Shown here: piece by piece, positions 2,128 through 60,591 of the stretch
Position numbering within the stretch: position 1 is the stretch's first letter
Layout: the number at the start of each line of letters is the position of its first letter
Assembly (NCBI RefSeq): GCF_023518235.1
Contig: NZ_CP090423.1
Location: forward strand, 3,037,001 to 3,101,000
Direction of reading: 5' to 3'
Length of the DNA: 64,000 nt
DNA from: Stenotrophomonas maltophilia
GTDB lineage: Bacteria > Pseudomonadota > Gammaproteobacteria > Xanthomonadales > Xanthomonadaceae
The notes under the pieces: generated by a model
Databases searched by the model: none
What the model was told of the DNA's origin: nothing
The model's input: the letters and a program-made list of their open reading frames with translations, nothing else
Program-made: the position numbers and the translations under genes

Positions 2128-2712
2128 GGGCAGGTCCCGAAAGGTGTGTGACCGCAGTATGCGGCGGGGAGTCGGGAGCGGTGTGTGAGGAGAATCAGTA
2201 TCCGGGCGCGCGTTTTTGGGGGTTGTGTTTGCTATGGTGGCTGTGGCGCCTTCACCCGGGCTGTTAAGCCAGCTTCACTTTGTAGGTCTTTCCAGGCCTT
2301 GCAACAGCGCCGACGCCTACCGATTTCCAGCGGATGATCGCATTGCGCGATATGTCGCTTTCGGCATCGCAGTGGCGGGAACAGGCCAATCGCGATAATT
2401 CATTTTTCCTTTCAGATCACCCGATGCCATCGAAACAATCGACTGGTAGGCGGGGATTTCGCCTGCGCATGATGAAACGCCACCTGCAAAGGTGGTCGGG
2501 TCTTCCAAGCCCGTGTAATCGAAGCTGTATACGCTTGCCAGCCGGCGTCGTCCTCCCAAGAGCGGCGTCGGCTGGCAATCCGTTCGCCGATCAACGGCGG
2601 GCGGTGCGTGGGGGCCTTGTGCCCGCCGGCTCATCGATTCCCGGTCTTGGAAGCCACGCATCGCCCGCCACCCTATCGTGGCGGCGCCTCTGTGCCTGAC
2701 GAGGATGCCCGC
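2128..2712. other. 585-base gap with structured, lower-GC sequence
   Basis: No convincing gene. GC content falls visibly between about 2280 and 2530. Two structures stand out: an imperfect 13-bp-arm inverted repeat around 2538-2578 (GCCAGCCGGCGTC ... GGCGTCGGCTGGC), and on the minus strand a short CACCT-TTGC-AGGTG hairpin around 2481-2494. A minus-strand open frame (2317-2661) crosses it, but has no ribosome-binding site and shows a composition break midway. It could be a decayed gene or a small RNA locus. Confidence 0.35.
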
Positions 2713-6677: not shown

Positions 6678-6730
6678 GTGGTGCCGCTTATCCGAATCGA
6701 ACGGATGACCTACTGTTTACAAGACAGTTG
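6678..6730. repeat. attR: direct repeat within tRNA-Thr
   Basis: This is the second copy of the 53-bp direct repeat, identical to 4420-4472. It contains the anticodon loop, T-arm and 3' acceptor of the functional tRNA-Thr gene, and marks the tRNA-side boundary of the remnant island. Confidence 0.88.
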
Positions 6731-6754
6731 CTCTACCAACTGAGCTAAAGCGGC
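6679..6754 (-). tRNA. tRNA-Thr (anticodon UGT)
   Basis: On the minus strand the 76 bases fold as a complete tRNA. The acceptor strands GCCGCTT and AAGCGGC pair, the D-arm contains AGCTCAGTTGGTAGAGC, the anticodon loop reads CTTGTAA (anticodon TGT, Thr), the T-loop is TTCGATTC, the discriminator base is A, and CCA is encoded. The 3' half (6678-6730) is also the right-hand att site of the neighbouring remnant element, which regenerated an intact tRNA on integration. Confidence 0.95.
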
Positions 6755-30677: not shown

Positions 30678-30880
30678 CGAAGGTATCCCTGCCCTCGCTC
30701 CGGCAAAGGCAGGGATTTGAACGGGAATCCGGTGAAGGCGCCTTGCGCGCCCATTCCGGAGCTGCCCCGCAGCGGTGAATGGAAACGAATCCTGCCAACA
30801 GCACTGGGCTCACGCCTGGGAAGCGGCAGGGAGTAGGAGGGCTTCGGCCCGTGTCCATCAGCCCGAAGACCGGCCCCGGC
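30678..30880 (+). ncRNA. cobalamin (B12) riboswitch upstream of queH
   Basis: The plus strand carries the class-defining elements in order: an ATCCCTGCC...GGCAGGGAT stem, GGGAATCCGGTGAA (30723-30736), the B12 box GAGCTGCCCCGCAGCGGTGAA (about 30759-30779), an AATCCTGCC...GGCAGGG pairing and a final GCCCGAAGACCGGCC (30860-30874). Downstream, a GC-rich hairpin, GCAGGGGCCG...CGGCGGCCCCTGC (about 31024-31055), lies just before the queH ATG and could act as the expression platform. Binding of adenosylcobalamin normally lowers expression of the downstream gene. Confidence 0.85.
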
Positions 30881-31067: not shown

Positions 31068-31739
31068 ATGACCGAACTCCAACGCCCCACCCTGACCCTG
31101 CCCGCCGACGGCAAGCGCCTGCTGCTGCATTCCTGCTGCGCGCCCTGTTCGGGCGAAGTGATGGAGGCGATCACTGCCTCCGGGATCGACTATGCGATCT
31201 TCTTCTACAACCCCAACATCCACCCGGTGAAGGAATACGAGCTGCGCAAGCAGGAGAACATCCGCTTCGCGCAGCAGCACGGCATTCCGTTCATCGACTG
31301 CGACTACGACACCGACAACTGGTTCAGCCGCGCGCGCGGCATGGAGAACGAACCCGAGCGCGGCATCCGCTGCACGATGTGCTTCGACATGCGTTTCGAG
31401 CGCACCGCGCTGTACGCGCATGAACATGGCTACGACACCATCAGTTCGTCGCTGGGCATCTCGCGCTGGAAGAACATGGCGCAGATCAACGACTGCGGCA
31501 TCCGCGCCGCCTCGCGCTACGAGGGCCTGCAGTACTGGGACTACAACTGGCGCAAGGGCGGTGGTGCCAGCCGCATGGTCGAGATCAGCAAGCGCGAGCA
31601 GTTCTACCAGCAGGAATACTGTGGCTGCGTGTACTCGCTGCGCGATGCCAACCGCCACCGCCGTGAAACCGGCCGCGAGCGGATCAAGATCGGCCTGCTG
31701 TACTACGGGCAGGACGCTGAGCCGGCGCAGGGCGATTGA
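31068..31739 (+). CDS. queH: epoxyqueuosine reductase QueH (B12-independent)
   Basis: The 223-residue protein belongs to the DUF208/QueH family, which reduces epoxyqueuosine to queuosine in tRNA anticodons using Fe-S and an additional metal, replacing the cobalamin-dependent QueG. Conserved cysteines are visible: [14 protein letters not shown] (Cys23, Cys24, Cys27), RCTMCFDMR and [30 protein letters not shown] and [10 protein letters not shown] are family signatures. ATG 31068 fits the family start. The gene is the first plus-strand gene after a cobalamin riboswitch, which makes biochemical sense for a B12-independent isozyme. pncA follows 56 bases later and might be co-transcribed. Confidence 0.92.
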
Positions 31740-50010: not shown

Positions 50011-51621
<1,611 letters not shown>

Positions 51622-51629
51622 CCCATGCC

Positions 51630-53645
51630 ATGACCGAGCACGCTCCCATGAAGCCCGTTGCCATGTTCACCAAGATCCTGATCGCCAACCGCGGCGAAAT
51701 CGCCTGCCGCGTGATCGCCACCTGCCGTCGCCTCGGCATCGCCACCGTGGCGGTGTATTCCGATGCCGACCGCAACGCGCGCCACGTGCGGCTGGCCGAC
51801 GAAGCCATCCACATCGGCCCGGCCGCCGCACGCGAGAGCTACCTGCGCGGCGATGCCCTGCTCGACGCCGCACGCGCGACCGGCGCACAGGCCATTCACC
51901 CCGGCTACGGTTTCCTGTCCGAAAACGCGGACTTCGCCGATGCCTGTGCCGTCGCCGGCATCACCTTCATCGGCCCGCCGGCCAGCGCCATCCGCGCGAT
52001 GGGCGACAAGAGCGCCGCCAAGGCACTGATGGCCCAGGCTGGCGTACCACTAACCCCGGGCTACCACGGCGACCAGCAGGCGCCGGACTTCCTGCGTGCA
52101 CAGGCCGATGCCATCGGCTACCCGGTGCTGATCAAGGCCAGCGCCGGTGGCGGTGGCAAGGGCATGCGCAAGGTCGAGCGCAGCGAGGACTTCGTCGATG
52201 CACTGGCCAGCTGCCAGCGCGAGGCGGCCTCGGCGTTCGGCAACGATCACGTACTGGTGGAGAAGTACGTCGAGCGCCCGCGCCACATCGAGATCCAGGT
52301 GTTCGGCGATTCCCACGGTGATGCGGTGTACCTGTTCGAGCGCGACTGCTCGGTGCAGCGCCGCCACCAGAAGGTGCTGGAAGAGGCCCCCGCACCGGGC
52401 ATGAGCGCCGAGCGTCGTGCGGCGATGGGCAAGGCCGCCGTCGATGCCGCGCGCGCGGTGGGCTATGAGGGTGCGGGCACGGTGGAGTTCATCGCCGGCC
52501 CGGAGGGCGATTTCTACTTCATGGAAATGAACACCCGGCTGCAGGTCGAGCACCCGGTGACCGAGTACATCACCGGTACCGACCTGGTGGAATGGCAGCT
52601 GCGCGTGGCGGCCGGACAGCCGCTGCCGCTGCGCCAGGAACAGTTGGCGATTCACGGTCATGCAATCGAGGCGCGTCTGTACGCCGAAGATGCCGACCGC
52701 GGCTTCCTGCCCTCCACCGGCACCCTGCGCCGTCTGCGCCTGCCGACGCCGTCGGCCAACGTGCGCGTGGATACCGGCGTGGAGGAAGGCGACAGCATCA
52801 CCCCGTACTACGATCCGATGATCGCCAAGCTGATCGTCTGGGACGTGGACCGCGATGCCGCGCTGCGCCGCATGAGCCAGGCCCTGGCCGACTGCCAGGT
52901 GGTGGGCGTGACCACCAATGCCGGCTTCCTGCGCCGGCTGGTGAACACCGATTCGTTCACCCACGCCAAGCTGGATACCGCGCTGATCGAACGCGAACAG
53001 GCGGCACTGAGCGTGCTGGGCGACAGCGACGACGCACTCTGGCTGCTGGCGGCGGTGGCGGCGGTGGCCAGCACCGCGGGCGCCAGCACCGACGCACGCG
53101 ATCCGCATTCGCCGTGGCAGGCACAGGACGGCTGGCGCCTGGGTGCCCGTGCGCCACGCGTGCTGCCAGTGCAGCAGGGCGAGCGCCGGCACAGCCTGAA
53201 GGTGTGGGCGCAGGCTGACGGCTGGCGCGTGCAGTGCGATGACGCCGCGCCGGTACTGGCCATCGGCACGGCCGACGCGCACGCACTGACCGTGCAGCTG
53301 GGCGGGCGCCGCTGGACACTGCAGCTGCTGCGCGACGGTGACCAGCTGTACCTGTTCGGTGCCGATGGCCAGCATCGTTTCACCCTGCACGATCCGGTGG
53401 GTGAATCGGACCATGCCGTGGCCGACGCTGGCAGCCTGCTGGCACCGATGCCCGGCAGGATCGTGGCCACGCTGGTCGCGGCCGGCACCGAGGTCAAGCG
53501 CGGTACGCCGCTGGTGGTGCTGGAGGCGATGAAGATGGAGCACACCCTGCAGGCACCGGCCGATGGCACGGTGAAGGGCTACCGCGCCAAGGCCGGCGAC
53601 CAGGTCGGTGATGGTGCGGTGCTGGTGGACTTCGAGGCCGCCTGA
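51630..53645 (+). CDS. liuD: 3-methylcrotonyl-CoA carboxylase, biotin-carboxylase (alpha) subunit
   Basis: The 671-residue protein has a biotin carboxylase domain (about 12-455; KILIANRGEIACRVIATCRRLGI, the ATP-grasp Gly-rich loop IKASAGGGGKGMRKV, ERDCSVQRRHQKVLEEAPAP, FYFMEMNTRLQVEHPVTE). A spacer with MCC-specific BT region follows, then a C-terminal biotinyl domain with EAMKMEH (biotin on the Lys near 636). BirA from this window should biotinylate it. Starts at 51630, 51648 and 51663 are in frame; family alignment begins at the last. No liuE (HMG-CoA lyase) follows. Confidence 0.95.
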   Translation: MTEHAPMKPVAMFTKILIANRGEIACRVIATCRRLGIATVAVYSDADRNARHVRLADEAIHIGPAAARESYLRGDALLDAARATGAQAIHPGYGFLSENADFADACAVAGITFIGPPASAIRAMGDKSAAKALMAQAGVPLTPGYHGDQQAPDFLRAQADAIGYPVLIKASAGGGGKGMRKVERSEDFVDALASCQREAASAFGNDHVLVEKYVERPRHIEIQVFGDSHGDAVYLFERDCSVQRRHQKVLEEAPAPGMSAERRAAMGKAAVDAARAVGYEGAGTVEFIAGPEGDFYFMEMNTRLQVEHPVTEYITGTDLVEWQLRVAAGQPLPLRQEQLAIHGHAIEARLYAEDADRGFLPSTGTLRRLRLPTPSANVRVDTGVEEGDSITPYYDPMIAKLIVWDVDRDAALRRMSQALADCQVVGVTTNAGFLRRLVNTDSFTHAKLDTALIEREQAALSVLGDSDDALWLLAAVAAVASTAGASTDARDPHSPWQAQDGWRLGARAPRVLPVQQGERRHSLKVWAQADGWRVQCDDAAPVLAIGTADAHALTVQLGGRRWTLQLLRDGDQLYLFGADGQHRFTLHDPVGESDHAVADAGSLLAPMPGRIVATLVAAGTEVKRGTPLVVLEAMKMEHTLQAPADGTVKGYRAKAGDQVGDGAVLVDFEAA

Positions 53646-53655
53646 GGGTGGCGTG

Positions 53656-53675
53656 GCCGGGCCCTGTGGCCCGGC
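53656..53675. repeat. palindrome GCCGGGCCCTGTGGCCCGGC
   Basis: A 20-base near-perfect palindrome between the convergent liuD and dehydrogenase stops, likely serving as a transcriptional boundary. Confidence 0.5.
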
Positions 53676-53696
53676 GACAGCGCAGGCCGCTGGCCG

Positions 53697-54860
53697 TCAG
53701 CCCGGCAGCGGCCACACGTGGCCACCCGGATCCAGTTCCGCGGTGGTCTTTTCGGCCTTGCGCCAGCCCAGCCCGCAGATGGCCAGCGCGCCTTCGGCCA
53801 TCGGCCGCAGCCCGAACGCGCGCCCGGCCTCGGCTTCGTTGATGGCGGCGGTGACGAACGCGCCCAGACCCTGTGCGGTCGCGGCCGCATACAGCGCCTG
53901 CGAGACATGCCCGGCATCGAGCGTGACCGCGCGATAGGCCTTGGCGTGGTTGCGGTACTTCCAGTAGTTGCGTTCGAACCGGCACACCAGCACCAGCAGC
54001 ACCGGCGCATCGGCGAACCAGTGCTGCCCGGCCAGCAGCCGCAGGCCCAATGCTGCCGGATCGTCCACCGGGCCGGGCAGCCGCCCCAGCTCATGCGCCA
54101 GCGCGTGGTAGTGGTACAGGCCCGGCGCCAGCCCCTCCACGTTGCGCACCAGCAGATAGGCTTCCAGCGGATGCAGGCTGCCGGCCGAGGGCACGTTCTT
54201 CTTCAGGAAGCGCACTCCCGGATCGGTTTCCACCTGTGCCTGGGCCATCAGCACCTGTTGCAGCACCCGCGCCAGCAACGGCAGCGGCAACGCGCGGGCA
54301 CGATCGAAGTTGCGGCAGGTGGCCCGTGCCTGCAACAGCGGCTGCAGCGGGTCATCCTGACAATGCGGCAGCGGCACCGCGTCGGGCAACCGCGGCGGCG
54401 CTTCCGGCGGCGGGTGGCCGAAGCTGCGCACCAGATCGCGGGCCGTCACCAGCTGGTGCTGCTCCATGTCCTGCACGCTGTCCACGCCGTCCCAGCACGA
54501 CTGCTGGTAATGCAGGGCCGACAGCGGCCACCAGTGGCTGTCGCGCAGCTCCTGCTCGGCCGCGAACACCTCGGCGTGGGCCGGGTCATCGCTGACCAGC
54601 AGCCCCTGCTGCAGCAGCGCCAGCACGCGGCTGCGTGCCTCCGGCGCCTGCGGCAACGACTGCCAGCGTTCGGCACTGCAGGCCAGCAACCATGCACAAC
54701 TGGCCGCATCGATCACCTGCACGGTCGGCAGATGCGCGGCGTGTACCTGCAGCACCGGTTGCAGCTGCACGCCCGTACCACCGGCCAGCAGCGCATCCAG
54801 GTTGAAGGCGGGGCGTTCCACCGGCTCGACGAACAGCGTCCGGCAACGACGGAATCTCAT
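53697..54860 (-). CDS. SagB-like FMN dehydrogenase, putative peptide-maturation enzyme
   Basis: The 387-residue protein has a roughly 165-residue N-terminal region without obvious homology and a nitroreductase-fold domain (about 180-380) of the SagB type: CRNFDRARALPLPLLARVLQQVL, KKNVPSAGSLHPLEAYLLVRNVEGLAPGLYHYHALAHELGRLPG and RAVTLDAGHVSQALYAAATAQGLGAFVTAAINE. SagB enzymes oxidise azolines to azoles in modified peptides. I recall an NCBI family called putative peptide maturation dehydrogenase found with the neighbouring peptide and cyclase types; this gene fits that description. It is divergent from the peptide gene with 119 bases between starts. No azoline-forming cyclodehydratase (YcaO) is visible. 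Confidence 0.8.
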   Translation of the reverse strand: MRFRRCRTLFVEPVERPAFNLDALLAGGTGVQLQPVLQVHAAHLPTVQVIDAASCAWLLACSAERWQSLPQAPEARSRVLALLQQGLLVSDDPAHAEVFAAEQELRDSHWWPLSALHYQQSCWDGVDSVQDMEQHQLVTARDLVRSFGHPPPEAPPRLPDAVPLPHCQDDPLQPLLQARATCRNFDRARALPLPLLARVLQQVLMAQAQVETDPGVRFLKKNVPSAGSLHPLEAYLLVRNVEGLAPGLYHYHALAHELGRLPGPVDDPAALGLRLLAGQHWFADAPVLLVLVCRFERNYWKYRNHAKAYRAVTLDAGHVSQALYAAATAQGLGAFVTAAINEAEAGRAFGLRPMAEGALAICGLGWRKAEKTTAELDPGGHVWPLPG

Positions 54861-54979
54861 CGCGATGGCATCCCACGGTTGTGCAGGGCGCCGATCATAG
54901 CGTGGCACGCGCGCACGCCCATCAACTTCGCGGCGTTGCCGCCGATATTTCCATTTTCCCAACCTTGCGGTCGTATCCC

Positions 54980-55264
54980 ATGTCTGCTTCGCCCCTCTCC
55001 GCCGACGTTGTCCGGCAGCTGCTGGACCGGCTGTCCAGCGATGATGCCTTCCGTGCCGAATTTGCCAGGGATCCGGGCCAGGCGCTGCTAGCGCTCGGCG
55101 CCGACGAGGAAACCGTGCGCGCCTGCCATACACCCCTGGCCTCGCTGGGCGGCAAGGCGGAGTTCGCCAAGGCCGCTGCGCGCATGCACCAGCTGCTGGA
55201 CGTGCGCGCCGCGTTCACCGTGCCGTTCCTGTTCGAAGATGGCCTGCCGGGCCTGGATCAGTAA
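54980..55264 (+). CDS. NHLP/Nif11-leader-like putative modified peptide precursor
   Basis: The 94-residue product has the leader signature of NHLP/Nif11-type RiPP precursors: VVRQLLDRLSSDDAFRAEFARDPGQALLALG (residues 10-40), the L..L..D..F...F..DP..AL..LG pattern. The remainder has one Cys (Cys49) and ends TVPFLFEDGLPGLDQ. There is no double-Gly cleavage signal at a leader/core border, although LASLGG at 53-58 could serve. I recall a family named putative modified peptide (NHLP-related RiPP). It lies between the divergent dehydrogenase and the convergent cyclase, whose stop codons are only 7 bases apart from its own. Confidence 0.75.
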   Translation: MSASPLSADVVRQLLDRLSSDDAFRAEFARDPGQALLALGADEETVRACHTPLASLGGKAEFAKAAARMHQLLDVRAAFTVPFLFEDGLPGLDQ

Positions 55265-55271
55265 ACCGGCC

Positions 55272-57785
55272 TCAGGGCGCGGCTGACGCGCCCTTGTCCG
55301 CCAGCGGCGCGGGCCGGATCGCCGTCAACCGCTGCACGTCCATCGCGTTCAGTGGAAGCAGCGCGTAGTCGCCAACATCCTCGGCAAATGCCAGGCCTAC
55401 GTGGCGTTGCAGCCACTGTGCGTGGCGCAGGGCCGTGGCGTGGTCGCCGCTGGCCGTGGCCAGGTCCATCTGCAGCACCCGCCACTGGAACAGGCTCGCA
55501 GCAGGTTGCTGGGCCAGCAGCGACTGGGCCTGCGCCAGCCGGCCCTGGTCGAGCGCGATGCGCGCCTGCAACAGGTTCCACAGCTCGCGCAGGCGCGGGT
55601 CTGCATCGCGTTCGGGCAGCGCCTGCAACGCCTCCCGTCGCTGCGCCACCACCGCGCCCTGACCGGCGCGCACGGCGTGGTAGGCCGCGGCAAGCGCGAT
55701 GAATGCGTTGCGCCGTGCCGGCGCCGGCTGCGAACGATCAACCGCCTGCAATGTCCGGTCGAGCACCTGCTGGTAGGCCTGCGACGCGGCGGACACCGGC
55801 TGCTGGCCACGCCAGGCCAGCGCCTGCAACGCCAGGATGTCGCACAGACCCGAGCCGGTCGTGCACTGCGCAGCCGCCTGCTGCATGTCATTGGCCGCTT
55901 CGCTGCGGTGATCCTGCATGCCCAGCACCGCCGCACGCAGCATGCGCGCTCCCAGCCCGGAGGACCGCATTGCCGCAAAGCCGGCATTGGCCGCATCGAA
56001 ATCACCCGACAGGGCCAGCAGCAGCGGTTCCATCGCATCCCCGTTCCAACCCGGATGCAGACGTGCGCCACGCAGGGCGGCTTCGGCGGCGGCCATCTCG
56101 CCACGCGCCAGCTGCACCCGCGCCACGAACACCAGCACCAGTGCACGGCGAGAATGCTGCCGGGCCAGCAACGGCTGCGCCGCGGCCAGGGCGCCGTCGT
56201 AGTCACCCTGGGTGTAGAGGATCTTGGCGTAGTTCATCCAACCGGCCGGATCATCCGGGTACAGCTCGGTCAGCATCCGCCAGCGGTCGGCGATGCGTGC
56301 CGGCGGAGCTCCCTGGAAATCGGCGGCCCACGCGTCCAGGTAGAGCTGGTCACGCGCGGTCAGGTGCGCACGCTGGCTGACCGCTTTCTGGTACAGCGCG
56401 GCGGCCTGCTCCAGGTTGCCCTTGGCGTGCTGGATGTTCATCTGCCCGACATAGGCAAAGGCGAACCCGGGGTCGAGCCGGGTGGCCTGTTCGAAGAACA
56501 TCAGCGCGTCGTCATAGCGCGCTGCCGCCGTGGCGTCCACGCCCTTGGCATAGGCATGCAGCGCATCGAGGTTCGCGGTGGCCACGGTCGGCAGCGGCCG
56601 CTGGTCGCGGCCGACATCGCGCAGGGCCTCGCCCAGGTCCGTGCGCAGCGCCGCGACCACGTGGTCGGTGGAGGCCAGGATCGAATCCAGCCCGCGACCG
56701 TCGGCAAAGCGGGTGTAGACGGTCTGCCCGCTGCGCGGATCGACCACTTCGACACTGACCCGCACCTTGCCGTTGAGCTCCAGCACACTGGGCACCAGCA
56801 CCGCACGCACGCCATCGCGCAGCGCCACTTCGATGGCCAGGCTGCGGTCCAGACGCGCCTGCGGCGGCCGCTGCATCAGCTGCAGGGTGTCGCGCACCTT
56901 CAGTTCGCTGAGGATGTTGACGAACCGAGACTGCCCCAGGCTGATGTACAGCGCCTGCTCCAGGCTGCTGTCCAGCTGCGGGTACGCGGTGGCGTTGTGC
57001 ACGGCCGAGACGATCACCCAGTCACGCTCGGCAAAGGCGATGGCCGGTGCCGGCCGCAGCAGCGTCCACAGCAGCACGCCCAGCGCCAACGCCAGCGCAG
57101 CCTCGGTCACCAGGGCGGCCGGGCGCCGCCACAGCGGCAGATCACGCCAGGCCTTTTCGCCCGAACGCGGTCTGCGCAGCGGCGCACTGCCCCGCAGGCC
57201 GATCTCGAAGACTTCCTGGCGCTCGCTGATACCCTTGAACCGCCAGCAGCCATGGTCCTTCCAGCGCAGCTCATCGGCCGCCCACGGCAGTTCGCCGCTG
57301 GCCCGGCGCGCCATCTTTTCCGCGCTGGCCGACAGCAGGACCTGCCCCGGCCACGCCAGCTGCATCAGCCGCGCGGCCATCGGCTTGGCCAGACCCTCCA
57401 CTTCCACCGGCTTGGCGCCGTGGGCCATGGCCTCGGCACTGTTGTTCCACAGCAGCACATCGCCCACGTGCAGCCCGGCGCGCGCGCGCAGCACGATGCC
57501 GCGTTCGCGGCCCAGCGCATCCACCGCGCTCTGGTAGGACAGGGCGAAGCCGACCCCATCGATGGTGCGCTCGAACAGCATGAACAGGCCGTCGGAGCGA
57601 TCGATCAGCTGGCCGTTCCAGCGCTGCTGCAGGCCAAGCACCAGCCGGTCGTGCTGCTGGAACAGCTCAGCGGCGCTGATGTCGCCGATGCGCTCGACCA
57701 GCTGCAGCGAGTCGCACAGGTCGGTGAACAACAGGGTCCGCACCTGCGGGCTCTGCACCGGAAGGGAATCCTGGATGCCGTCCAT
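55272..57785 (-). CDS. putative peptide-modification-system cyclase: class III nucleotide cyclase plus TPR
   Basis: The 837-residue protein has an N-terminal class III cyclase domain (about 15-180). LLFTDLCDSLQLVERIGD holds the first metal-binding Asp, LIDRSDGLFMLFERT the second Asp, and ARAGLHVGDVLLWN the next strand. The usual catalytic Asn before AARL is replaced (LAKPMAARLMQ), so activity is uncertain. A membrane segment (about 223-246) separates it from a TolB-like sheet (about 250-380) and TPR-like helical repeats (about 400-800). I recall an NCBI family named putative peptide modification system cyclase with this make-up. It starts at ATG 57785 with AGAGG upstream, 15 bases after the GGDEF gene. 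Confidence 0.78.
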   Translation of the reverse strand: MDGIQDSLPVQSPQVRTLLFTDLCDSLQLVERIGDISAAELFQQHDRLVLGLQQRWNGQLIDRSDGLFMLFERTIDGVGFALSYQSAVDALGRERGIVLRARAGLHVGDVLLWNNSAEAMAHGAKPVEVEGLAKPMAARLMQLAWPGQVLLSASAEKMARRASGELPWAADELRWKDHGCWRFKGISERQEVFEIGLRGSAPLRRPRSGEKAWRDLPLWRRPAALVTEAALALALGVLLWTLLRPAPAIAFAERDWVIVSAVHNATAYPQLDSSLEQALYISLGQSRFVNILSELKVRDTLQLMQRPPQARLDRSLAIEVALRDGVRAVLVPSVLELNGKVRVSVEVVDPRSGQTVYTRFADGRGLDSILASTDHVVAALRTDLGEALRDVGRDQRPLPTVATANLDALHAYAKGVDATAAARYDDALMFFEQATRLDPGFAFAYVGQMNIQHAKGNLEQAAALYQKAVSQRAHLTARDQLYLDAWAADFQGAPPARIADRWRMLTELYPDDPAGWMNYAKILYTQGDYDGALAAAQPLLARQHSRRALVLVFVARVQLARGEMAAAEAALRGARLHPGWNGDAMEPLLLALSGDFDAANAGFAAMRSSGLGARMLRAAVLGMQDHRSEAANDMQQAAAQCTTGSGLCDILALQALAWRGQQPVSAASQAYQQVLDRTLQAVDRSQPAPARRNAFIALAAAYHAVRAGQGAVVAQRREALQALPERDADPRLRELWNLLQARIALDQGRLAQAQSLLAQQPAASLFQWRVLQMDLATASGDHATALRHAQWLQRHVGLAFAEDVGDYALLPLNAMDVQRLTAIRPAPLADKGASAAP

Positions 57786-57800
57786 TGCCACCTCTGCCGC

Positions 57801-58844
57801 TCATGATCCGTTGTCGGGGCCATCGCCCCAGCGCAGGCAATTGCCGCCATCGCGCTTGGCCTGGTACAGCGCGCGGTCGGCGCTGGCGTACCACTCGCTC
57901 CAATCCGCCTCGGCCACCAGCAGGCTGGCACCGATGCTGACCAGGCTCACGTGCGGCGTGCCATGGCTGCGTTCGAGCAGGCCGTGCACCGCGCTGAGAA
58001 TGAACTCGGCGGCGTGCTGCACGATCTCGTGGTTGCCACGGCGCAGGATCAGGCAGAACTCATCGCCGCCGAGCCGGCAGGCCAGGTCCTGCTCACCGGC
58101 CATCGAACGCAGGATGTTGCCCATGCTCTGCAGCACGCGGTCGCCGGCCTGGTGGCCGTGGCGGTCGTTGATCTGCTTGAAGCGGTCGCAGTCGATCAGC
58201 AGCAGCGCCTGCGGCGGGCCATCGACGTGGGCGCGGCACTCTTGCAGGTACAGGGTCAGGCCGCGGCGGTTGTGCAGCCCGGTCAGCTCATCAGTGCGCA
58301 CCAGCTCGCGGGTGTGGGTGAGCTGGTGGGTGGTGATGTACAGGTTGTCCAGCGCGGTTTCCAGGTCGTGGTTGCGCCGCCGCAGCTGGCTGATCAGGGC
58401 CTGTTCGTTGGTCAGCACGCGCATGATCGTGCGGCGCAGGAAGTAGGCCACCAGGCCGGGATCGGATTCGACCAGCCGATGGAAATCGCGCGGGCCCAGC
58501 TCCAGCACTTCGCAGTCATCGAGCGCGCGCGCACTGGCGCTGCGCAGGTGATCGCCGACCAGCAGGCCCAGCTCACCGAAGAACTCGTGCTGGCCAAGCG
58601 TCTTGATCACCAGGTCCTCGCCGAAGTCCAGTTCGATCTGGCCCTGGAGGATCACATACATGCGCTCGCCACGGTGTCCACGCTGGAACAACCACTGTCC
58701 GGCATGAAGCTTGCATGGGCGGGCGAATCTGGCGAACAATGCAACCTCGGCATCGGACAGCAGCGCATGCACGATCTCGGCCATCGCCACGCGGGCGATA
58801 CCTGTCGTCACATCACTGTTCTCGGCCGCACCCCTGCCGGTCAT
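57801..58844 (-). CDS. cyclic-nucleotide-binding GGDEF diguanylate cyclase
   Basis: The 347-residue protein has an N-terminal cNMP-binding (Crp-like) domain (about 28-145: PCKLHAGQWLFQRGHRGERMYVILQGQIELDFGEDLVIKTLGQHEFFGELGLL, whose FGELGLL box is that of phosphate-binding cassettes), a coiled-coil linker and a GGDEF domain (DELTGLHNRRGLTLYL, LLLIDCDRFKQINDRHGHQAGD, active-site RLGGDEFCLIL). It should make c-di-GMP. It is directly upstream of the cyclase gene in the same direction, an arrangement in which a cyclic nucleotide from the neighbour could control it. Start codons at 58853 (GTG), 58844 and 58784 are all possible. Confidence 0.85.
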   Translation of the reverse strand: MTGRGAAENSDVTTGIARVAMAEIVHALLSDAEVALFARFARPCKLHAGQWLFQRGHRGERMYVILQGQIELDFGEDLVIKTLGQHEFFGELGLLVGDHLRSASARALDDCEVLELGPRDFHRLVESDPGLVAYFLRRTIMRVLTNEQALISQLRRRNHDLETALDNLYITTHQLTHTRELVRTDELTGLHNRRGLTLYLQECRAHVDGPPQALLLIDCDRFKQINDRHGHQAGDRVLQSMGNILRSMAGEQDLACRLGGDEFCLILRRGNHEIVQHAAEFILSAVHGLLERSHGTPHVSLVSIGASLLVAEADWSEWYASADRALYQAKRDGGNCLRWGDGPDNGS

Positions 58845-59289
58845 TCCCTGCACCCGCCGCCAGCGTCCCCTGGTGAGCCGCGGAGCATAGCACCGCTTTA
58901 AAGTGTGCGCCCTATCTCATTTTGAGCCTTTGGCCGCACGTTCGTGATGTGAAGATCCGGCGTGGCCCGTTCTGGTCACGCCTGTCCGCGCAAAACCCCT
59001 GCTGGATCAAGCCGATGGCGGATTTCACAGGGTTTCGGCCAAGTTGCGATCCCGCGGGTGCGCCGGATTGACGCGGTGCGCCGCGCGCGCCGTTGCCTGG
59101 ATACAACAACGCCGGCAGGTCCCCCGACCGGCCGGCGTTGTCTGGCCCTTCCCTGGCCACCCTGATCAGACCCGGTAGTGCCGGCCGCTGGCCGGCAACC
59201 CGTCGATGGTCCCGGAGTCCACGTGGCTGCCGGCGAGCGACCGGCACTACCGCGTCAGATCCGTTGCCCGGCGCATCAGCGTTTACCGA
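58845..59289. other. 445-base gap: hairpin and SMAG pair, no gene
   Basis: The gap between the GGDEF gene start and the aceA stop holds a GC-rich hairpin, ACAACGCCGGC...GCCGGCGTTGT (about 59105-59141), and a diverging SMAG pair (59175-59250). The hairpin is probably a transcriptional end for the aceBA message. No open frame has coding character. Confidence 0.5.
59175..59250. repeat. SMAG inverted pair downstream of aceA
   Basis: GTAGTGCCGGCCGCTGGCCGGCAACC faces GGCTGCCGGCGAGCGACCGGCACTAC. The second unit differs from the exact complement at a few positions, unlike the perfect pair at 47269. Confidence 0.75.
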
Positions 59290-60591
59290 TCACGCCGCGC
59301 GTTCGCTGCGCCCGCCGTGGAACTGCTCTTCCTCGGTGGAACCGGTCAATGCAGTCGTGGACGACTGCCCCTGCTGGATCGCCTGGGTGACCGCATCGAA
59401 GTAGCCGGTGCCCACTTCGCGCTGGTGCTTGACCGCGGTGAAGCCACGCTCGGCCGCTTCGAACTCGGCTTCCTGCAGTTCCACGAACGCGCTCATCTGG
59501 CGGCGCGCATAGCCGTGGGCCAGGTTGAACATGCCGTAGTTCAGCGCGTGGAAACCGGCCAGGGTGATGAACTGGAACTTGTAGCCGTAGCTGCCCAGCT
59601 CGCGCTGGAACCTGGCGATGGTGGCGTCGTCCAGGTTCTTCTTCCAGTTGAAGCTGGGCGAGCAGTTGTAGGCCAGCAGCTTGCCCGGGAACTTCGCATG
59701 GATCGCCTCGGCGAACTTGCGCGCGAATTCCAGGTCCGGCTTGCCGGTCTCGCACCACACCAGGTCGGCGTAGGGCGCATAGGCCAGGCCACGGCTGATC
59801 GCCTGGTCCAGGCCGTTGCGGGTCTTGTAGAAGCCTTCCACGGTGCGCTCGCCGGTGGCGAAGGGCTTGTCGTTGCCGTCGATGTCGCTGGTCAGCAGAT
59901 CGGCCGCCTCGGCATCGGTACGCGCCACCAGCAGGGTCGGCACGCCCAGCACGTCGGCAGCCAGGCGCGCGGCGTTGAGCTTCTCGATCGCCTCACGGGT
60001 CGGCACCAGCACCTTGCCGCCCATGTGGCCGCACTTCTTCACCGAGGCCAGCTGGTCTTCAAAGTGCACGCCGGCGGCACCGGCCTCGATCATCGCCTTC
60101 ATCAGTTCGAACGCATTGAGCACGCCGCCGAAACCGGCTTCGGCATCGGCCACGATCGGCTGCAGGAAGTCGATGTCATCCTTGCCTTCAGCGTGATGCA
60201 GCTGGTCGGCGCGCAGCAGCGTGTTGTTGATGCGCTTGACCACCGCCGGCACCGAATCGGCCGGGTACAGCGACTGGTCCGGGTACATCTGCCCGGCCAG
60301 GTTGGCATCGGCCGCCACCTGCCAGCCGGACAGGTAGATCGCCTTCAGCCCGGCCTTGACCTGCTGCATGGCCTGGTTGCCGGTCAGCGCACCCAGCGCG
60401 TTGACGAACTCGCGCTCATGCAGCGACGCCCACAGCTTCTCTGCACCCATCCGGGCCAGCGAGTGTTCGATGTGGACGGTGCCGCGCAGGCGCACCACAT
60501 CGGCGGCGCTGTAGTTGCGCTGGATGCCTTCCCAGCGCGGGTTGGTATCCCAGTCGTGCTGGATCTGTTCGGCAGTGGGCAGCTTGCTCAT
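59290..60591 (-). CDS. aceA: isocitrate lyase
   Basis: The 433-residue enzyme splits isocitrate to glyoxylate and succinate. It shows [20 protein letters not shown], the active-site loop [22 protein letters not shown] with the catalytic Cys, [19 protein letters not shown], and [18 protein letters not shown]. Length is typical of the short isocitrate lyase class. It follows aceB by 64 bases on the same strand. Together with aceB it provides the glyoxylate shunt, useful with acetyl-CoA from leucine breakdown. Confidence 0.96.

Follow-up and report, generated by a model that had tools for sequence, protein, structure and literature searches.

Three adjacent genes in a 64,000-nt stretch of the Stenotrophomonas maltophilia chromosome (the window) encode a precursor-like peptide, a SagB-related flavin mononucleotide (FMN) dehydrogenase and a membrane guanylate-cyclase-type protein with a tetratricopeptide repeat (TPR) region, and form one cassette that is exchangeable between related species. 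We propose, with confidence close to even, that the modified peptide acts as a pherotype-like input to the cyclase as its receptor; ligand binding, export and chemistry are all putative. PMC3770947 portrays cyclic GMP (cGMP) signalling in bacteria as poorly understood and assigned no signal to the TPR region of the xanthomonad cyclase. A candidate signal and a likely maturation enzyme that adjoin the putative receptor and change with it would bear on the inputs that control cGMP and cyclic di-GMP in xanthomonads, and offer a candidate function for a peptide system named by NCBI.

Each protein of the triad scores above a curated NCBIfam cut-off, and the genes adjoin: the dehydrogenase reaches 495 bits against 240 for TIGR04511, the peptide 75.9 against 34 for TIGR04509 and the cyclase 933.7 against 400 for TIGR04510. 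A preliminary description of this DNA had proposed the three-gene locus and supplied the family names; all three genes were located, and the names proved right, as the scores lie far over the cut-offs. The current name of TIGR04509 is 'NHLP-related RiPP peptide' (RiPP, ribosomally synthesized and post-translationally modified peptide), and the whole genome holds one match to this model and one SagB match. The divergent dehydrogenase and peptide genes are separated by a 119-bp gap, and the convergent peptide and cyclase genes by 7 bp. A consensus scan, the 119-bp gap included, gave no sigma-70-like promoter, and a terminator scan found one candidate where 1.5 were expected by chance. In the open-licence PMC literature searched, the model names of the triad were not found, and no listed title or abstract opening described the triad.

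The triad is present or absent as one unit. Among 200 genomes of the order, matches over cut-off to TIGR04511, TIGR04509 and TIGR04510 occur in 55, 55 and 55 genomes, and the three sets are identical; the co-occurrence check that the preliminary description had set was therefore passed, and the association is not due to chance. Weaker matches occur in further genomes of the 200 for the dehydrogenase (10), the peptide (1) and the cyclase (131), the last mainly through TPR stretches. Cyclase and dehydrogenase share one contig in 53 of the 55 genomes, at a median distance of 549 bp and a maximum of 1,121 bp. By a script count that took in only part of the peptides of multi-copy genomes, 45 of these 53 have the window's arrangement; in 5 the dehydrogenase has the reverse orientation, yet the peptide keeps its middle position and the three genes remain together, and 3 have no counted peptide between, of which one (G101) becomes standard once its second peptide is included. 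Only 8 of 397 genomes sampled from the phylum carry a dehydrogenase over cut-off, and all 8 belong to this same taxonomic order. Eleven genomes of the family lack the triad: three keep a full-length ortholog (50–56% identity) of the protein with cyclic-nucleotide-binding (cNMP) and GGDEF domains that is encoded beside the cyclase, and the other eight give GGDEF-domain matches only. In all three, the isocitrate-lyase-like and GGDEF genes adjoin, and cyclase, peptide and dehydrogenase are absent from the 12–13 kb around the GGDEF gene; a control locus has all of them. It is this joint absence where the GGDEF gene is kept, together with the identical 55-genome sets, that defines the triad as a unit.

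The same unit is exchanged as a block. The genomes compared represent one per species of the collection, so the exchange applies among close species (the S. maltophilia complex). Against seven D457-type genomes, the window's GGDEF protein is 93–95% identical and its carboxylase subunits 94–95 and 98–99%; the values are 39–40% for the cyclase, 49–51% for the dehydrogenase and 29–32% for the peptide. Within the cyclase, identity to this type falls from 68–70% in the cyclase domain and 56–58% around the membrane segment to 38–39% in the next domain and 22–25% in the TPR region, its most divergent part. A second type (SJTL3, MDMC339) shows 46, 46 and 36% identity to the window for cyclase, dehydrogenase and peptide, and a third (L008, a metagenome-assembled genome) 43, 59 and 36%. 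Away from the window, S. geniculata L019 and SJTL3 L070 share 99% identity in the GGDEF protein and 43% in the cyclase.

At the nucleotide level, 250-bp segments compared with D457, SJTL3 and L008 range from 79 to 96% identity outside the triad, 32 of 33 at 86% or more, and from 42 to 79% inside it. Identity steps from 90–92 to 74% at ~57.8 kb and from 60–73 to 93–94% at ~53.6 kb; its minimum, 42–48%, lies at ~55.2–56.0 kb, covering the end of the TPR region as far as the peptide gene's 3′ end. No such dip is seen for L003, whose allele is that of the window. In a quick GGDEF tree, 16 complex members (selected on the identity of their flanks once the pairwise values were known) form one clade (Shimodaira–Hasegawa-like approximate likelihood-ratio test, SH-aLRT, 99), and a quick dehydrogenase tree rejects that clade (difference in log-likelihood 326, approximately unbiased test p 7e-71). 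The window's dehydrogenase is 45–50% identical to Streptomyces enzymes, among the best 80 retained of 244 confirmed loci, and 46–59% to those of sister species with another allele. Between close species, the candidate signal, maturation and sensor genes are polymorphic between conserved flanks, the pattern of a pherotype locus.

Divergence of the peptide tracks the TPR region most closely. A mirror-tree comparison used 68 rows with all genes, thinned to 61, and partial Spearman correlations in which the species signal was corrected by the isocitrate-lyase-like gene. Peptide distance correlated with TPR distance at 0.531, with the two parts of the dehydrogenase at 0.385 and 0.386, with GGDEF at 0.335, with the cyclase domain at 0.271 and with the domain between at 0.259. 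All seven Mantel tests, those for GGDEF and the cyclase domain included, beat all 999 permutations, so significance alone does not single out the TPR region; the differences do, at 0.256 over the cyclase domain (bootstrap 0.123–0.409) and 0.197 over GGDEF (0.034–0.388). When the comparison is restricted to pairs less than 93% identical in the reference gene, the TPR value is still the highest (0.476; dehydrogenase 0.372).

The TPR end adjoins the peptide gene, so linkage could account for part of the correlation. Such linkage, which raises correlations between neighbouring genes, would favour a reading in which the cyclase is functionally unlinked to the peptide and dehydrogenase and the genes travel together by position in a recombination hot spot, as would the occurrence of dehydrogenase and peptide without a cyclase described below. 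The farther TPR part (residues 401–600), however, follows the peptide better than the nearer part (601–837), at 0.581 against 0.416 (difference 0.162, 0.074–0.260), which argues against plain linkage. The identical genome sets, the joint absence beside a kept GGDEF gene in three of three genomes and the intact trio around an inverted dehydrogenase also speak against positional co-travel, which we consider very improbable.

On its other side the cyclase gene meets that of a putative signalling partner. The cNMP-GGDEF gene has the same orientation as the cyclase gene, ends 15 bp before its start and lies outside the exchanged block; both genes are present in 71 of 74 non-actinobacterial named loci. 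Xanthomonas campestris XC_0250 makes cGMP, XC_0249 binds it through its cNMP domain and then raises cyclic di-GMP, and mutants of either gene are reduced in biofilm and virulence (PMC3770947); adjacent homologues in S. maltophilia were noted in the same work. In its main text the words peptide, dehydrogenase and membrane have no occurrence and no ligand is named, and a 2019 review still gives the TPR domain as of uncharacterised function (PMC8042644). The seven cGMP-contact residues of XC_0249 (F73, E90, L91, H98, V142, N145 and E146) all recur in the window's protein, offset by four; F77, E94, L95, H102 and E150 are invariant in 72 of 72 alignment rows (row counts throughout include the window's own sequence), V146 is kept in 70, and at position 149 N stands in 66 rows and S in the other 6. 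PDB 5h5o is the best among the solved matches listed for the GGDEF protein, and visual comparison finds these residues in it at equal spacing; 4KG1, the structure of PMC3770947 itself, is absent among them.

For the cyclase, the comparison was made by the residue numbers named in PMC3770947 rather than by the XC_0250 sequence: D35, D65, L67, A144, L151 and A155 of the window's protein correspond to D41, D71, L73, A150, L157 and A161 with a constant shift of six. When the last four possible starts of each of 10 Xanthomonas loci were considered, 4 loci had an ATG from which the D41/D71 numbering follows exactly. All 73 rows have D22, D35, D65, A144 and A155; L67 is retained in 64 of them and L151 in 60. 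We place the window's cyclase and GGDEF protein in the XC_0250/XC_0249 cGMP pathway on sequence, their enzyme activities being predicted from homology. The preliminary description had called the triad predicted rather than characterised, which stands except for the cyclase family, of which XC_0250 is characterised and acts on XC_0249 (PMC3770947). By hydropathy and charge count, Lys and Arg are more frequent on the N-terminal side of the predicted transmembrane segment in every one of the 73 rows, so the cyclase domain is predicted inside and the TPR region in the periplasm. Pfam TPR matches to that region all stay below gathering scores; it also matches solved TPR proteins.

The dehydrogenase has the features of a RiPP-tailoring flavoenzyme. 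It scores 98.9 bits against a cut-off of 78.4 for TIGR03605 (SagB), and its structural model folds like ThcOx, with an FMN oxidase fold and conserved active-site residues; ThcOx aligned from residue 1 of the model, in which the N-terminal part was modelled only with the whole protein, and four to five stand-alone nitroreductase entries come out ahead of BmdC and McbC when folds are compared. This SagB/ThcOx-type enzyme with its putatively clamp-like N-terminal part supports the RiPP-like logic first proposed for the locus. ThcOx (the cyanobactin azoline oxidase) and McbC oxidise azolines made by another enzyme. The lack of a YcaO noted earlier for the window extends to the whole genome (PF02624, no match; 5 of 14 control genomes match), so azoline oxidation is unlikely, and a SagB-type oxidase without a YcaO partner points to a possibly new peptide chemistry. 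Azoline-type chemistry was set aside on this ground, though 52 of 141 family peptides carry Cys in their last 20 residues. The idea that the leader co-varies with the N-domain of the dehydrogenase was likewise unsupported (0.255, against 0.295 for the catalytic domain).

At least one peptide relative accompanies the dehydrogenase in 110 of 110 loci chosen by that enzyme (L003–L112, which include genomes reached twice, judging by identical peptides; L011 was left out of one alignment for an in-frame stop in the chosen stretch). One hit was found in 91 loci, two in 10, three in 7, four in 1 and five in 1. Residues 1–74 show a conserved leader-like pattern, a Cys-bearing middle region and a LASKEE-like stretch. 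The variable core of the window's peptide contains VPFLFEDGLPGL, nearly constant among its close relatives; it has one C/S/T residue of 20 (a Thr, with no Cys or Ser), against a mean of 3.3 over 141 peptides. Membership of the NHLP/Nif11 type, which the preliminary description had assigned, was rejected: the peptide scores 11.6 against a cut-off of 50.9 for TIGR03793 (NHLP) and matches no Nif11 model at E ≤ 1, its Gly-Gly (57–58) is poorly conserved, with Ala at the first position in 99 of 111 rows and Ser or Pro at the second in 92, and the core is not C/S/T-rich.

Conservation over some 74 residues, the LASKEE-like segment included, could also mark a small cytosolic partner with which the dehydrogenase acts as a redox sensor, the peptide never being secreted and the cyclase responding indirectly. 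Of 111 primary peptides, 101 have a Cys after the leader Gly and before the LASKEE-like stretch (residues 41–58, window 55100–55153), outside the presumed core, and this, like the lack of an identified exporter, would suit such a sensor. A cytosolic partner would nevertheless be out of reach of a TPR region predicted to be periplasmic, the dehydrogenase looks like a clamp-bearing RiPP oxidase, and three recurrent core types account for the ends of 117 of 141 peptides (24 others; the types are patterns written after inspecting the peptides). We judge the redox sensor unlikely.

We favour instead a pathway in which the peptide is a signal. It would be made as a long leader with a core of ~20 residues; the clamp-like part of the dehydrogenase, judging by fold and active site, would bind the leader while FMN oxidises the core by two electrons, at a guess by Cα–Cβ desaturation of a core residue as in the distantly related AlbA oxidase. 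The core would then be cleaved off and reach the periplasm or the outside, where, as co-exchange and co-divergence suggest, it may be the ligand of the periplasmic TPR region. From its conserved residues, the cyclase would make cGMP, as shown for the Xanthomonas ortholog, and cGMP would bind the neighbouring cNMP-GGDEF protein, raising cyclic di-GMP and so affecting biofilm and other behaviours. Different cassette alleles would represent different pherotypes. As a tentative extension, which we hold with more doubt than belief, the protein may be a bacterial receptor guanylate cyclase that the cell's own peptide activates after oxidative modification, a functional analogue of the animal natriuretic-peptide receptors, with exchangeable pherotype cassettes by which related bacteria distinguish kin from non-kin and adjust cyclic di-GMP to match.

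The peptide and dehydrogenase also occur without the cyclase. Six actinobacterial loci, five from Streptomyces (L015, L016, L020, L022 and L026) and one from Kribbella (L033), carry both genes, with similar cores and up to five peptide hits; none of the six genomes matches TIGR04510. The three of their dehydrogenases that were placed in the tree group with the enzyme of Lysobacter antibioticus (SH-aLRT 96). The smallest unit seen is thus peptide plus dehydrogenase, in two phyla, and cross-phylum transfer of this two-gene RiPP-like unit is probable. The preliminary description, right about the families, had missed this module along with the GGDEF partner and the block exchange.

These modules, and the 19 of 110 loci with more than one peptide hit, favour the main rival to a signalling role: a modified peptide exported against competitors, bacteriocin-like, with the cyclase serving regulation or self-recognition rather than reception and an arms race driving the polymorphism. 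Polymorphism is also typical of antagonistic systems. Yet 91 of the 110 loci hold a single peptide hit; no shared third gene (exporter, peptidase or immunity) recurred in the six actinobacterial loci under crude gene calling; and the TPR region equals the peptide in divergence, for which a cyclase that served regulation alone would have no need. We regard this effector as doubtful.

Other copies vary the unit further. In L009 (10888–13005), L101 (2382–4127) and L102 (2559–4124), a second cyclase-family gene downstream of the dehydrogenase lacks the cyclase domain and keeps the membrane segment, the next domain and the TPR region; those of L101 and L102 run into the locus end. The sensor here looks like a module of its own, possibly a decoy or co-receptor. 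Separately, a cyclase-family gene in L103 (2800–4149) has a seemingly degenerate cyclase domain; five peptide hits, several of them almost alike, occur in that genome. In L082 (11250–12273) a second dehydrogenase copy spans two reading frames and is apparently broken or a sequencing error.

Several observations weigh against the peptide as ligand of the cyclase. In X. campestris, supplying only the cyclase domain was enough to give the mutant back its biofilm (PMC3770947), so that system has no strict need of a ligand. Occurrence of peptide and dehydrogenase without the cyclase in actinobacteria implies that the peptide has some role apart from it. The advantage of the TPR region over the dehydrogenase is marginal (0.113, bootstrap 0.002–0.236), and pairwise distances are non-independent, so that co-divergence counts as support and not as proof; in the dehydrogenase tree, long branches meet. 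The ThcOx clamp that was matched is the second one, a site described as buried in ThcOx. By eye, the peptide has no secretion signal. No dedicated exporter or leader peptidase was identified, no search of the whole window for one having been made; three C39-like hits lie elsewhere in the genome, and two of them, which belong to ABC-transporter-like frames, seem to have a degenerate catalytic-cysteine site.

Table 1. Features of the cassette and its flanks, in window coordinates.
Feature	Position	Strand	Basis or remark
SagB-related FMN dehydrogenase (TIGR04511), 387 aa	53697–54860	−	Putative N-terminal peptide-clamp/RRE-like part (~residues 1–155) and nitroreductase-fold oxidase domain
Divergent intergenic region, dehydrogenase/peptide	54861–54979		Sequence
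Precursor-like peptide, 94 aa (TIGR04509)	54980–55264	+	75.9 bits, cut-off 34
Conserved leader-like part, ~peptide residues 1–74	54980–55201	+	Column conservation; boundary inferred
Variable C-terminal core, ~peptide residues 75–94	55202–55261	+	Boundary inferred
Membrane guanylate-cyclase-type protein with TPR region, 837 aa (TIGR04510; XC_0250 family)	55272–57785	−	933.7 bits
Class III cyclase domain, ~cyclase residues 1–200	57186–57785	−	Conserved residues
Single predicted transmembrane segment, cyclase residues 225–243	57057–57113	−	Hydropathy and charge count
TPR region, cyclase residues 401–837	55275–56585	−	Pfam TPR matches, solved-TPR matches
cNMP-binding and GGDEF diguanylate cyclase (XC_0249 family)	57801–58853	−	PF00027, PF00990
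Exchanged cassette (dehydrogenase–peptide–cyclase)	53650–57800		Sliding nucleotide identity; edges approximate
Biotin-dependent carboxylase pair (flank)	50011–53645		Methylcrotonyl-CoA carboxylase by PF21139
Flank gene, which we take to be isocitrate lyase	59290–60591		By recognition only

Elsewhere in the window, a cobalamin riboswitch (Rfam RF00174, 88.3 bits) at 30682–30875 (+) lies just upstream of queH (PF02677) at 31068–31739 (+). QueH is an epoxyqueuosine reductase thought to replace the B12-dependent QueG; as the B12-free isozyme it would make sense under a B12 switch. A C4 antisense RNA (RF01695, 60.9 bits), a phage-type regulator, lies at 2590–2675 (+), a few kilobases from a tRNA-Thr gene at 6679–6754 (−), and five frames near it match no Pfam or PHROGs family.

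Finally, the cassette can be set beside known systems. With the NHLP (proteusin-type) precursors of TIGR03793 (PMC2887384), the peptide shares a long leader with the L..L..D..F...F..DP..AL..LG signature; it differs in its score far below the cut-off, in the unconserved Gly-Gly and in a core that is not C/S/T-rich. With XC_0250/XC_0249 the window shares adjacent class III cyclase-TPR and cNMP-GGDEF genes whose named residues agree; the main text of PMC3770947, however, names no ligand, peptide or dehydrogenase, and the enzyme activities of the window's proteins are predicted ones. All models of the NCBIfam triad TIGR04509/TIGR04510/TIGR04511 match, and the NCBI names already imply a peptide-modification system; those names imply biosynthesis, whereas the present results favour a signalling role for the cyclase, with the GGDEF protein as its output, and indicate exchange as a block. 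The dehydrogenase has the FMN oxidase fold of ThcOx (5lq4/8pz5), BmdC and McbC, a WKY motif in common with ThcOx, and a putative clamp- or RRE-like N-terminal part, for which ThcOx and BmdC are the parallels. Those enzymes, however, act on azolines that another enzyme has made (for BmdC, a thiazoline on a non-ribosomal peptide synthetase), whereas the window's genome has no YcaO and the core a single Thr and no Cys or Ser. In the Gram-positive pherotype systems agr and ComQXPA, signal, maturation enzyme and sensor region co-diversify. The window's cassette likewise co-diversifies between conserved flanks; it differs from them in having a membrane guanylate cyclase for its candidate sensor, in belonging to a Gram-negative bacterium and in a polymorphism that is seen here between close species.

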